Positions 34,755-38,405 of a stretch of DNA of 64,000 nucleotides are shown in pieces (within the stretch, counting starts at the first letter, position 1; every line of letters begins with the position of its first letter). The translations under genes were made by a program, and so were the position numbers. The stretch is from Serinicoccus sediminis (lineage in GTDB: Bacteria; Actinomycetota; Actinomycetes; Actinomycetales; Dermatophilaceae). The stretch is taken from assembly GCF_004153545.1 (NCBI RefSeq), contig NZ_SDVA01000004.1, positions 62,001 through 126,000 on the forward strand. Reading direction: 5' to 3'. The notes beneath the pieces were generated by a model. It worked only from the letters and a program-made list of their open reading frames with translations, was not told where the DNA came from and did not search any database.

Positions 34755-35342
34755 TCATCGCACCAGCCCCACTCCCGCCAGGCCCCCCACACGCGAGCCA
34801 CCGGCGGAACGTTCGGGCCACTCGGCTCCGTCGAGGACGGCCCGCTGGGCGGCGGGGAGCGTGGCCAGGGGCTGGCCGAGCCAGTCGGCTCCGGTGGCGG
34901 CGAGCCAGGTGGCGTCGACGGCGTTGTCGTCGGGCTCGTCGATGTGGAGGCGCCGGTAGAGGGCCATGCGCATGTCGGGCTTGGTGGCGTTGCCTTTGCC
35001 GGTGGCGTACTTCTTGAGGGTGGTCGGGGGGACGATGGCGACGGGGTGCTCGTCGCCGCGCAGGAGGGTGTCGATGGTGAGCCACCAGAGGCCGGCGCGG
35101 TCCCAGGTGCCGGGGTTGGACCGGGAGTAGGCGGGGCCTTCGATAACGACGAGGTCGGTCCCGCGGGTGTGGTCGAGGATCTGCTCGAGCAGCTGGTGGA
35201 GGCGTTCGCCGCGGTCGGTGACGGTGGTGCCGTCTGGACGGGAGGTGATGACGTCGCGTTCGATGACGCGTGAGTGGTCGCCGATGGCGACGCGGGCGAT
35301 GCCGGTGCCGGTGAGTGATGGGTCGATGCCGGTGATCTGCAT
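34755..35342 (-). CDS. RuvC-like Holliday junction resolvase
   Basis: The 195-residue protein has a complete RuvC-type acidic set: Asp7 in ITGIDPSLTGTG, Glu68 in LVVIEGPAYS, and Asp139/Asp143 in EPDDNAVDA. Phage RuvC-like nucleases resolve branched DNA before packaging. It is an early gene upstream of terminase. ATG 35342 has GAAAGG upstream. Confidence 0.87.
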   Translation of the reverse strand: MQITGIDPSLTGTGIARVAIGDHSRVIERDVITSRPDGTTVTDRGERLHQLLEQILDHTRGTDLVVIEGPAYSRSNPGTWDRAGLWWLTIDTLLRGDEHPVAIVPPTTLKKYATGKGNATKPDMRMALYRRLHIDEPDDNAVDATWLAATGADWLGQPLATLPAAQRAVLDGAEWPERSAGGSRVGGLAGVGLVR

Positions 35343-35356
35343 TTGCGTGGCCTTTC

Positions 35357-35761
35357 TCAGAATGGGATGTGGTCGTATTGCCGGGCGGTGAATGTGTCTT
35401 GGTGGGAATGGGTGGTGTATTCGATCCCTGGGGGTGGGGTGCAGGTGTGGGTGTGGTGGACGTCGTAGGTGGCGCTGGCGGGGGTAGTGGCGATGCGGAT
35501 GGTGCAGCGCCAGGTGAGGGCGCCGGCGACGTGGGCGTAGGTGGCGAGGCCGGCGGTGAGGGCTTGGAGCTCGCCGAGGGGGGTGAGGGGTCGGGGGTCG
35601 AGGGTGACGCGGATGCCGGTGACCTGGGGGCCGTCGTCGGCGAGGGCGACGAGGACGGTGCGGCGGCATGCTCGGCAGTGACGTCGGGTGGGTGTGGTGG
35701 TGACGCGCTCGCGGTCCATGTGGCCTTGGTCGATCGCGTGCTTGAGGGCGCGTGGGTCCAT
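35357..35761 (-). CDS. Small protein with Cys-rich motif
   Basis: The 134-residue protein begins DPRALKHAIDQGHMDRERV and has HCRACRRTVLVALADDG (CXXC) near residue 30, then a beta-rich region. Its ATG overlaps the prim-pol/helicase stop. It may bind nucleic acid through a zinc ribbon. Function unknown. Confidence 0.65.
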   Translation of the reverse strand: MDPRALKHAIDQGHMDRERVTTTPTRRHCRACRRTVLVALADDGPQVTGIRVTLDPRPLTPLGELQALTAGLATYAHVAGALTWRCTIRIATTPASATYDVHHTHTCTPPPGIEYTTHSHQDTFTARQYDHIPF

Positions 35762-38235
35762 CAGTCGATGACCTCTCCGGTGTCGAGGTTGATGCGGACT
35801 CGTTGGCCGGCGATGGTGCGCTCGACGATGCGGGAGGCACTTGGGGTGTCTGGTGGTGGCTCCTGGTCGACCCGTGCCGTCCGAAGCGCCTCCGTCTCCC
35901 CGTAGGGGGAGCGAGACGGGGAGGCACTTCCGGGGGAGGCACTCGAACCGCCGCCCGGGAGGCACTTGGGAGGCAGTTGGGAGGCGCTTTCGGGTGGGCC
36001 TGGGTCGGATAGCTCGACGAAGGCGCGGACGTGGGTGTGGACCATGCGGGCGCCGCCTCGGCCGGTCTCTTCGTGGCGGTCGACGTAGCCTTCGGCGACG
36101 AGGGTGTCGAGGGCCTGGACGATGTACTCCTCCTTGCCGCGGACCTCCTTGGTCACGACCCGGCGGGAGGCGCCGCCTTCGCAGGTCTGCAGGAAGGTGC
36201 TGACGCGCTCCATGAGGGCGGTGGGCCGGAACGCCGGGCGCTCGCCGGTGGTGGTGTCGCCGGCCTGTCCGGTGCCGGGTGCGTGGAGCTGGACGTCGAT
36301 GGCGTCGTCGTGCTCGCCGGGGGCGATGGTGATGTCGCCGGCCCAGTGGCCGGTCTTGCCGGGGAGGGAGGCGCCGCGGACGTCGCCTTGGCGGTCTTTG
36401 TCGACGCGCAGCCGCAGTTTTCCTTCTTGGCCTTTCCCGAATTGTTTGATGACTTCGACGCGAATAGCGCACCCGGTGGTCATGGCCCTTTTTGCTTGGG
36501 CTCCGATTCCGCCGCTGGACTTGTTCTCGGTGTCTTTGGGGGTGTGGTCGATGTAGACGACGGCGGCGCCGTCGTGGGCGAGGGGTTTGAGGATGGTCTG
36601 GGAGAAGCTGGTGGCGTCCTTGTTGGACATGAGGTCGAGGCCCTGGAGGGTCATGGCGGCGTTGAAGCCGTCGACGATGACGAGGTGGGGGGTCCAGTCG
36701 GCGAGGTGTTGGTGGAGGTCGCGGCCGGTGGGCAGGTAGGGGGAGAAGGGTTCGTCGGGGCCGATGTAGGCGATGTGGGCGCGGATCTGGTCGCGGGTGA
36801 GGCCCATGGCGCGGAGGCGGCTGGTGATGCCGCGGTGGGAGTCTTCGAAGTCGAGGATGGTGGTGCGGTGTCCGGCCTGGGTGGCTTGGACGACGGCGAG
36901 GAGGGCGATCCAGGTCTTGCCGGATTCGGAGGGGGCGACGATGCCGTTGACGCGGCCTGGGTAGAAGAGGGCGTGGCCGTCGTCGCGGGTGAGGAAGGCT
37001 GGTGGTGGTTCGGGGGTGTCGTCGTCGAGGGCGAGGTCGTTGTCGCGTGGCCACCAGGTGGTCCGCTCGACCGTGTCCGGGTCAGCCGTTGCGCTCGGTT
37101 CGGCTGCAGCGGTGGCAGGTGCGTCCGCCGTGCCAGATGAACCACTCGTGTCCGTCGACGGCGCAGTAAGCCCGCTCGAGGAGCTCGATAACGGAGCCGA
37201 GGGTGCGTGCGACGAGGTCGCGGGTGGTGGGCATGGGGTGGTGCTCCTGTCGATGAGGCCGGCGAACGGGTCGGTGCACGGGTCCGGGGTGGTGGCCGGG
37301 GTTGGGTGGTGGGCGGCGGCGATGTCGATGGACCCGGTGATGAGGCGGGCGTACTCGGCCTCGGCTTCCCCGGGTGCCCGGTCGGTGCCGGTGGCGGCGA
37401 GGAACGCTGCCTGGATCTCGGCGAGGGCCGTGGTGGTGCCCGGGTGTCCTTCGGCGGCGAGCCAGACGAGGCGGTGCACGGCGCGCAGGGCAGTGTCGTG
37501 GCGGGCGCCGGCCTTGTTGGTGAGGTCGGTGTGGGCGCGGGTGGTGGCGGCCTGGACGGCGCGGCAGGGGTGCCCGGGTGGTGCCTGGTCGAGCCAGGCG
37601 GTGGTCGCTGCGGTGGTGAGGCCGGCGGTGGTGGTGTCGGGTGCGAGCTCGCCACCGGTGAAGTGGGACACCCATGCGTCGGGGAGGGCCGGGAGGTCAC
37701 CGGGGGTGGGGATGGTGCCGATGGTGGTGGTGCCGTCGGGGCTGATCCACCGGTAGGTGCCGCCGTGGTCGGGGTGGGTGGAGGGCCAGGCGACGGCGTA
37801 GCGGTGTTCGCGGCGGATGGTTTCGATGCCGGGCCCGAGGACGGAGGGCCACCGCAGGCCGGGTGGGACGGTGTAGAAGCGGATGCCGGAGGTGCCGTCG
37901 TCGCGGGACGTGGACCGCCACGTCGCGGGCAGGGACCCGTGGGTGGTTTCGAGCTGGTCGAGGACGAGGCCGCCGGGTTTGCTGTCGTAGGCGTCGACGT
38001 CGATGCCGAGGACGTCGGGGGGCATGCGGAGGGCGATGTTGCCGTCGGGGTGGTCTTCGGTCCAGGCATGGACGTCGGGCCCGGAGGGGGTGGCGCCGTC
38101 GCGTCCGGTCCACCCGGCGGGTGGGTGCTTCTTGGCGCGCGGGGGCAGGGGGAGGGGCGCCCAGCCTGCGCGGAGGTAGTGGAGGGCGTGGTCGCCGTAG
38201 GGGCCGGTGGTGGGGGTGTCGTCGGGGGCCGACAT
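35761..38235 (-). CDS. Primase-polymerase/AAA+ helicase fusion
   Basis: This 824-residue protein is probably the phage replication initiator. Residues about 1-200 match the bifunctional primase/polymerase N-terminal domain (YLRAGWAPLPLPPRAKKHPP; metal-site acids in LGIDVDAYD; later RWISPDG). A low-complexity Ser/Thr/Pro/Ala linker follows (about 330-400). Then comes a RepA/DnaB-like ATPase with Walker A VAPSESGKTW and Walker B HLVIVDGFNA, and a winged-helix-like C terminus. The linker coincides with a well-formed 50-codon ORF in another frame (37082-37234), so the fusion may have arisen by read-through of an intervening gene. ATG 38235 overlaps the upstream stop. Confidence 0.85.
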   Translation of the reverse strand: MSAPDDTPTTGPYGDHALHYLRAGWAPLPLPPRAKKHPPAGWTGRDGATPSGPDVHAWTEDHPDGNIALRMPPDVLGIDVDAYDSKPGGLVLDQLETTHGSLPATWRSTSRDDGTSGIRFYTVPPGLRWPSVLGPGIETIRREHRYAVAWPSTHPDHGGTYRWISPDGTTTIGTIPTPGDLPALPDAWVSHFTGGELAPDTTTAGLTTAATTAWLDQAPPGHPCRAVQAATTRAHTDLTNKAGARHDTALRAVHRLVWLAAEGHPGTTTALAEIQAAFLAATGTDRAPGEAEAEYARLITGSIDIAAAHHPTPATTPDPCTDPFAGLIDRSTTPCPPPATSSHAPSAPLSSSSSGLTAPSTDTSGSSGTADAPATAAAEPSATADPDTVERTTWWPRDNDLALDDDTPEPPPAFLTRDDGHALFYPGRVNGIVAPSESGKTWIALLAVVQATQAGHRTTILDFEDSHRGITSRLRAMGLTRDQIRAHIAYIGPDEPFSPYLPTGRDLHQHLADWTPHLVIVDGFNAAMTLQGLDLMSNKDATSFSQTILKPLAHDGAAVVYIDHTPKDTENKSSGGIGAQAKRAMTTGCAIRVEVIKQFGKGQEGKLRLRVDKDRQGDVRGASLPGKTGHWAGDITIAPGEHDDAIDVQLHAPGTGQAGDTTTGERPAFRPTALMERVSTFLQTCEGGASRRVVTKEVRGKEEYIVQALDTLVAEGYVDRHEETGRGGARMVHTHVRAFVELSDPGPPESASQLPPKCLPGGGSSASPGSASPSRSPYGETEALRTARVDQEPPPDTPSASRIVERTIAGQRVRINLDTGEVID
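37082..37234 (-). CDS. Overprinted small zinc-finger-like ORF inside the prim-pol/helicase linker
   Basis: The 50-codon ORF starts at ATG 37234 with AGGAG eight bases upstream. The product, beginning MPTTRDLVARTLGSVIELLE, ends with a plausible metal site (AYCAVDGHEW, then TCHRCSRTERNG). Its third codon positions are almost all G or C, as in true genes here, while the overlapping long frame is low-complexity in exactly this interval. It is therefore likely to be a real gene on the same strand in a different frame. Confidence 0.55.
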   Translation of the reverse strand: MPTTRDLVARTLGSVIELLERAYCAVDGHEWFIWHGGRTCHRCSRTERNG

Positions 38236-38405
38236 CACGCGGGGACCTCCTGGGGACATTGGTGGGTGACGTGGACGGGCACGAGGTGGTCCCTGAGGCA
38301 TGGGCCGTCGTCCTGCAGGTGCGGTGCCGAGTTGTTGGCCCGGTACCGCTCGGAGGCGGTGACGAGGTCGGTGACCATCACCTCGAGGGCGGTGCTGTTG
38401 CTCAC
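38235..38405 (-). CDS. Small early protein
   Basis: The 56-residue product starts SNSTALEVMVTDLVTASERY after GTG 38405, which overlaps the previous stop; it ends HVTHQCPQEVPA. A helix is followed by a Cys/His-containing tail (GPCLRDHLVPVHVTHQC) that could bind metal. Function unknown. Confidence 0.6.
   Translation of the reverse strand: MSNSTALEVMVTDLVTASERYRANNSAPHLQDDGPCLRDHLVPVHVTHQCPQEVPA

Follow-up and report, generated by a model that had tools for sequence, protein, structure and literature searches.

The window, which means here the whole stretch of 64,000 nucleotides (nt) that was analyzed, comes from Serinicoccus sediminis (contig NZ_SDVA01000004.1) and is part of a 3.55 Mb genome (G000:C46:62001-126000). 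A long open reading frame (ORF) on its minus strand encodes a primase-polymerase (prim-pol) domain and a RecA-like helicase domain joined by a linker. A small ORF is overprinted on the DNA of this linker, in the +2 frame of the long ORF (Table 1). The start candidates of the long ORF are 38301 and the internal ATG at 38235. Pfam recognizes Prim-Pol (E 1.6e-23, 84.3 bits against a cut-off of 22.8) and AAA_25 (E 1.4e-10, 41.6 bits against a cut-off of 27); PF09250 and AAA_25 are thus joined in one ORF with both cut-offs reached. The best PHROGs annotation is DNA primase (E 1.8e-58). The gene is a prophage gene, and its protein is 100% identical to one in the IMG/VR viral contig L001.

Table 1. 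Features of the prim-pol/helicase locus, in positions of the window.
Feature	Position	Strand	Basis
Long ORF, 846 amino acids (aa): prim-pol, disordered linker, RecA-like (AAA_25) helicase	35761..38301	-	ORF list, Pfam, PHROGs
Prim-Pol domain (PF09250), long-frame residues 39-195	37717..38187	-	Pfam
AAA_25 helicase domain, long-frame residues 447-591; Walker A SESGKT	36529..36963	-	Pfam
Interdomain linker, long frame, 65 codons, Ser/Thr/Pro/Ala-rich	37057..37251	-	alignment, AlphaFold model
Overprinted small gene, 50 aa, +2 frame of long ORF	37082..37234	-	ORF list, GC by codon position, Shine-Dalgarno, recurrence
Shine-Dalgarno AGGAG of small gene, 9 nt before ATG	37244..37248	-	sequence reading

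The prim-pol edge of the linker is the cut chosen for the prim-pol alignment (A3), at a conserved GLI. In the AlphaFold model, which was computed from the long protein and four homologues and is weak as a whole (mean predicted local distance difference test (pLDDT) score 55), the linker lies within residues 322-393. These residues are mostly at pLDDT 25-35 and have no secondary structure.

The small ORF consists of 50 sense codons and TGA, and is complete within the other ORF on the same strand in a different frame. Its ATG at 37234 is 17 nt past the end of the prim-pol alignment, set by hand at GLI. A preliminary description, made from the letters alone, had reported here a 50-codon ORF in another frame with a good Shine-Dalgarno (SD) sequence, strong G/C at third positions, and a change of the long protein to Ser/Thr/Pro/Ala low complexity exactly at this ORF. 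All of these features are found. The GC contents at the three codon positions are 0.63/0.57/0.86 in the small frame, a normal coding pattern, versus 0.56/0.88/0.64 in the long frame over the same bases. Elsewhere the third-position GC of the long frame is 0.92 (prim-pol part) and 0.89 (helicase part). Ser, Thr, Pro and Ala make up 40 of the 50 long-frame residues over the small ORF, versus 36% in the remainder of the protein. Upon synonymous-codon resampling of the long protein, third-position GC as low as this is obtained at P ~1e-4, and at least three Cys in the small frame at P ~0.008. Given the long protein, the small frame is open in the window with a probability of 0.73, and it is also open upstream of its ATG; openness by itself proves nothing. 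The case for a small gene goes beyond chance because the signals combine and recur across loci.

Related loci were gathered with the long protein and then with alignments of its parts, from viral contigs and one bacterial contig; three lists of viral contigs are limited to the best 80, and another to the best 80 of 83. The linkers of these relatives, found by prim-pol or helicase similarity, were read in three frames. A small ORF is present at the same slot and in the same +2 frame in ten distinct loci, which are the window and nine relatives (L002, L005, L007, L008, L026, L029, L103, L105, and L192). The proposal that the small ORF is overprinted on the prim-pol/helicase linker, with the long protein reading through out of frame, is thus borne out by relatives. 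The ten small ORFs are 44-81 aa long and start with ATG (7/10) or GTG (3/10). Nine products contain at least three Cys.

The GC contents in both frames had been suggested as a check over relatives, and the codon positions are flipped in all nine loci tested. The long frame in the linker has the highest GC at position 2 (0.83-0.96), with 0.57-0.77 at position 3, and position 3 of the small frame has 0.82-0.94. Synonymous resampling gives P < 0.01 for the low third-position GC in nine of the ten loci (0.055 in L026) and P < 0.04 for the observed Cys count in eight (0.064 in L026). Read in the long frame, the ten small ORFs yield 81% Ser/Thr/Pro/Ala, 1% Lys/Arg/His and no stop; the unused third frame yields 42% Lys/Arg/His and two stops. 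Within the slot, it is the small frame that bears the normal codon signature, and the Ser/Thr/Pro/Ala linker of the long frame is its shadow. The small ORFs also have initiation signals of their own. An SD of at least 5 nt precedes 7/10 of them versus 4/149 background starts in the same loci, and an SD of at least 4 nt at a spacing of 5-9 nt precedes 10/10 versus 23/149.

A frame-switch scan covered 241 ORFs, non-redundant by containment only; 134 of them have the prim-pol profile, near-copies included. The ten loci are within the 16 highest rows, all with a +2 switch near the prim-pol end. The other six rows are L148, L138, L134 and L146, which have no prim-pol match and were scored upstream of the helicase, and L237 and L212, which show the +1 frame far from the prim-pol end. 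The frame-switch segment starts exactly at the start codon in four of the ten loci, 1-6 codons earlier in five, and within the ORF in L026. A combined start test demanded at least 30 codons, a frame-switch score > 5 and an SD of at least 4 nt. At the slot, 11 of 246 candidate starts (137 distinct stops) pass, from 10 of the 134 prim-pol ORFs, L105 passing twice. Elsewhere in the same genes, none of the 1,856 candidate starts (822 distinct stops) passes; starts located 45-200 nt upstream or 150-400 nt downstream of the prim-pol end were assigned to neither group.

Other ORFs or segments in the +2 frame are seen in several long ORFs. In L074:3462-6128, a different +2 ORF is located at the prim-pol end, ~1060-1270 nt into the long ORF. 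It starts with MRSVAGDQEG, contains a hydrophobic stretch and lies behind GGAGGAGG. It failed the combined start test and hence was not counted; the prim-pol of L074 is more distant. Short +2 frame-switch segments also occur off the slot, late in the prim-pol-containing long ORFs of L219, L220, L222, and L226 (~2.6-3.5 kb in).

Positions 35700-38350 of the window have no megablast match among 50,697 phage records. The long protein matches 258 of these records, none of which spans 80% of it. No tblastn match in the same records was obtained with the 50-aa product of the window (E up to 1) or with the products of L103, L008 and L029 (E up to 0.1); such short queries are weak, so this does not mean absence. 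Among the viral contigs, the small family of L103 and L192 is seen in those two contigs only. Whole genomes of the same genus (11), family (99), order (297), and class (394) were also searched, the last three at E up to 1e-60 only, and eight matches were found besides the window. Six of them, excluding G242 and G618, were inspected as larger regions. One, L353, has the same linker as L029, and five have no small ORF.

The small products are of several types. By reading, the Cys/His motif C..GH..CxRC is seen in the window, L026, L103, and L192; CxCGH in L008 and L029; and two CxxCxGxG in L005 and L105. L002 and L007 each stand apart. In phmmer comparisons within a database of the ten products, L103 and L192 (~1e-30), L005 and L105, and L008 and L029 (the latter two pairs at 0.001-0.006) are mutual best matches. 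The window product is closest to L192 (0.003), L005 (0.005, of another motif type), and L026 (0.01). PHROGs matches below 1e-3 are seen in three of the nine products scanned: L008 to phrog_36899 (3.4e-5), L005 to phrog_12902 (1.2e-4), and L105 to phrog_6060 (1.4e-4). L029 follows at 0.0022, L007 and the window match only above 0.1, and no PHROGs match was found for L002, L026, and L103. The Pfam scores of L105 (anti-TRAP 31.9 bits, cut-off 32; DnaJ 25.5, cut-off 32.7) and L005 (DnaJ 18.6, anti-TRAP 13.3) miss the curated cut-offs for membership in DnaJ CxxCxGxG or anti-TRAP. The window product had been called zinc-finger-like. Its Cys/His pattern agrees with this by motif reading, but Pfam yields no match to the product at E up to 1, and its best in PHROGs is E = 0.17. 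In a predicted model of this product alone, a helix at 4-27 is followed by a less certain Cys/His part, which is of the zinc-knuckle type by motif.

The small product of L192 is 77% identical to that of L103. The helicase profile that matches L103 fails to recognize the helicase parts of L192 and L008. The small gene thus travels with the prim-pol side. A C-terminal motif, V/I/F-N-x-x-T-G-E/D, is common to the long proteins of the window (35761-35830), L002, L008, and L192, and is kept in L008 and L192 although the profile misses their helicase parts. Downstream of the long ORF in the window, the ORF at 34755-35942 contains a RuvC-like resolvase.

The long frame is open through the small ORF in all ten loci. 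Eight of nine loci lack any in-frame ATG, GTG or TTG from the end of the small ORF up to Walker A. With the small proteins and the local codon usage taken as given, the probabilities that the long frame is open by chance multiply to 0.017 over nine loci. All 13 small-frame Leu, Val, Ile, or Met codons that precede a codon starting with A end in C or T; such a codon ending in TG before A would create TGA in the long frame. As restart codons are mostly missing and the long frame remains open, the simplest assumption is that the helicase is produced within the fusion. Both frames are probably translated. An intein or intron is rejected because the open long frame in each of the ten loci needs no splicing, and a sequencing error as the cause of that open frame because ten distinct contigs show it.

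Both profile matches are found in 27 ORFs. The small ORF is present in eight of them and absent in 19, several of which are near-copies; the helicase match of L028 is marginal. The linker has 60-97 codons with the small ORF versus 29-66 without it, L028 aside. Of the 134 prim-pol ORFs, 124 continue for at least 200 codons, with a Walker-A-like string in 94; among the remaining ten, five reach the end of the DNA and five have a stop. Gene order was surveyed in the 78 loci with both matches, copies included; 133 loci with a helicase match and no prim-pol match were left out. The two are in one ORF in 75 loci and in separate ORFs in three (L020, L091, and L227). The prim-pol of L020 looks frameshifted. 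In L091, the two genes overlap as ATGA with nothing between them. Besides, in L016, L259 and L260 the prim-pol ORF ends before the alignment does, and what looks like the rest of it is in the following ORF, which overlaps or adjoins the first; prim-pol may consist of two genes in these loci.

It had been asked whether relatives hold prim-pol, small protein and helicase as three genes. One locus, L227 (3611-5822), does. Its prim-pol gene, a 56-aa gene and the helicase gene are joined by two ATGA overlaps: the prim-pol stop overlaps the small start behind AGGAG, and the small stop overlaps the helicase ATG. Each downstream gene is in +2 of the preceding one, which places the helicase in +1 of prim-pol. 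L227 is a distant relative: its prim-pol scores 248 bits, whereas eight of the ten small-ORF loci reach 435-569 bits. The 56-aa protein of L227 contains a single Cys and matches neither a Pfam family at E up to 1 nor any of the ten small products.

The prim-pol tree has 37 rows and a midpoint root, and its backbone is largely unresolved; the prim-pol of L105 was too short to be included. Eight of the nine small-ORF rows are in one group (92/95) together with L028, which has no small ORF and another helicase, and L026 is outside. The small-ORF label requires three changes on this tree, versus 8.3 when labels are shuffled. A single change suffices in none of 200 bootstrap trees, yet the starred branches alone still permit one.

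Based on these data, it is likely that the linker DNA encodes two proteins. An internal SD and start codon just after prim-pol open a +2 gene of 44-81 codons with normal third-position GC bias. Ribosomes that began at prim-pol would translate these bases in a frame shifted by one and produce a stop-free Ser/Thr/Pro/Ala string leading into the helicase. The linker would be inert and flexible by default, because C-ending codons of the small gene read at +1 give xCy codons. Different small genes, most of them rich in Cys, seem to have occupied the slot in turn. The weakest point of this explanation is the function of the small product, which could be a zinc-binding microprotein, accessory or cargo, that is produced alongside the replication enzyme.

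Several observations weigh against this two-protein reading. The product of L007 has no Cys, and L026 is weak in both resampling tests. The thresholds of the combined test were fixed once nine loci had already been seen, and the ten loci are not independent, as the shared tree group indicates. Zinc binding is read from motifs, the window product has no family match, and its model (mean pLDDT 72) comes from a lone sequence without an alignment. Possible restarts of the long frame exist in L008 (an ATG 86 codons past the small ORF, with no evident SD), in L192 (a GTG near the P-loop), and in L002, L026 and L103 (an in-frame GTG inside the small ORF). The ratio of nonsynonymous to synonymous substitution rates (dN/dS) in the single usable pair, L103/L192, does not single out either frame: it is 1.02 for the small and 0.77 for the long frame over all aligned codons, and 0.58 and 1.00, respectively, over the better-aligned block from APADPL on. 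The dN/dS of prim-pol is 0.41 (L025/L192). No significant contrast with prim-pol third positions is seen in L103/L192 (lowest P 0.10).

The two-protein slot could have two origins. Either a fusion already existed and received the small gene, or the three genes of an ATGA-coupled operon were joined when the prim-pol stop was lost. The latter was the view of the preliminary description, in which prim-pol, small gene and helicase were three neighbors made one by stop loss, the helicase coming into frame and the linker being the out-of-frame middle gene. L227 shows such an order, and its small gene has the same +2 frame relative to prim-pol that the fused loci have. Were the A of its ATGA to change, the prim-pol frame would run on through the small gene, which makes the route plausible, and the ATGA-coupled operon would explain the constant +2 frame by itself. 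The linker composition as a shadow of the small gene fits this origin as well. In the ten fused loci the base after the small start is G or C, so that the long codon across this site reads TGG or TGC and differs from TGA by a single base; this is compatible with stop loss and not independent evidence, because the open long frame excludes TGA anyway. Stop loss with extension is among the routes to embedded genes listed in a spanin paper (PMC6139136). However, L227 is one of only three split loci and distant, its small product is unrelated, and stop loss alone would not fuse its helicase, because this is in +1. L091 has nothing between its two genes. The many fusions without the small ORF (19 of 27) suggest that the fusion is the older event. 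Entry of the small gene into an existing fusion is therefore slightly favored, at close to an even chance, and stop loss of three genes is a serious possibility that falls somewhat below it.

The closest precedent is the ShiLan type of out-of-frame HNH genes in phage methylases (PMC11855218). The ShiLan domain, an HNH gene of 195 aa, occupies the third frame of a methylase gene in an actinophage; the host frame is open and no ribosome-binding site (RBS) is detectable. Pacc40 is a similar case, with an HNH-type product of 160 aa (PMC11855218). Both systems share the second gene in the third frame, which we equate with +2, in an actinobacteriophage gene whose host frame is free of stops (in all ten loci here), and in both the insert read in the host frame is predicted to be loop-like or disordered (PMC11855218). 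This likeness, and the scatter of product types over the prim-pol tree, would suit a selfish homing-type insertion, a mobile element with an out-of-frame nuclease in the linker. The defining HNH is absent here, though. The alternate-frame products have only 44-81 aa, are mostly Cys-rich and of several types, and follow a good SD in one interdomain linker, while the ShiLan type has no detectable RBS and sits in methylase genes. No HNH match was found in nine products with Pfam and PHROGs at E up to 1 (for L105, among the best 25 of 26 PHROGs rows). The sole nuclease-named match is RNase_E_G_Thio, a thioredoxin-like part, in L005 and L105 below the cut-off. No close pair with an occupied and an empty site was found; L028 of the same group is empty but has another helicase. 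A homing insertion is thus unlikely. The absence of any second gene, with the ORF being a side effect of the Ser/Thr/Pro/Ala linker that a GC-rich gene encodes, is even less probable. Both frames are readily open at such composition, but the third-position GC of the long frame falls below expectation, starts, SD and Cys content recur, and the other 124 of the 134 prim-pol ORFs fail the combined test. We give the least credence to a programmed frameshift, in which -1 slippage from prim-pol into the small frame would make a prim-pol/zinc-finger protein beside the full fusion. The dnaX gene gives two products in such a way, the window small frame is open upstream of its start, and the SD could serve as a stimulator. 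By eye, no classical slippery heptamer is seen before the window start. A start codon with an SD at 5-9 nt is present in all ten loci, and the frame switches lie at the start codon or close to it, or, in L026, within the ORF.

Other embedded phage genes resemble the small gene in part. Lambda Rz1 lies embedded in Rz, and such small genes fully contained in another frame are often overlooked in annotation (PMC6139136). Rz and Rz1 form one functional membrane-associated pair, whereas the slot is in the linker of a replication gene and its occupant changes type. The sgl lysis genes of leviviruses are also short embedded genes with little or no mutual similarity; unlike the present case, in which some products resemble other phage families, they belong to RNA phages, serve lysis and are described as de novo (PMC7693330). 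Actinophage prim-pol genes such as gp54 of Gordonia phage Hibiscus likewise have prim-pol and a long C-terminal part in one gene, and some others are annotated as DNA primase/polymerase/helicase. The Hibiscus locus (L181) differs in that it has no small ORF at the slot by the combined test. The literature searches made did not turn up any earlier description of a small gene located in the linker between prim-pol and helicase.

It can be speculated that the linker is a cargo slot locked in reading frame: small +2 genes with C-ending codons would always spell an inert Ser/Thr/Pro/Ala linker, so that unrelated zinc-type genes could be swapped harmlessly. We put this forward tentatively and with more doubt than confidence, because the constant frame could also result from ATGA coupling of the kind seen in L227, with no constraint by the linker. 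If true, the cargo slot would give GC-rich genomes a general means of hiding genes in interdomain linkers, and linkers could arise as shadows of other genes. Embedded small genes are readily overlooked by gene callers. The signature of a +2 small gene, a Ser/Thr/Pro/Ala-rich long frame and an SD after the domain end predicts further sites in GC-rich genomes. The locus offers one site in a replication gene that can be traced over many phages in four states, as two genes, as three genes, and fused with or without the small gene. It is a tractable case for how two frames stay open together and how one gene can cast a low-complexity linker as its shadow in another.

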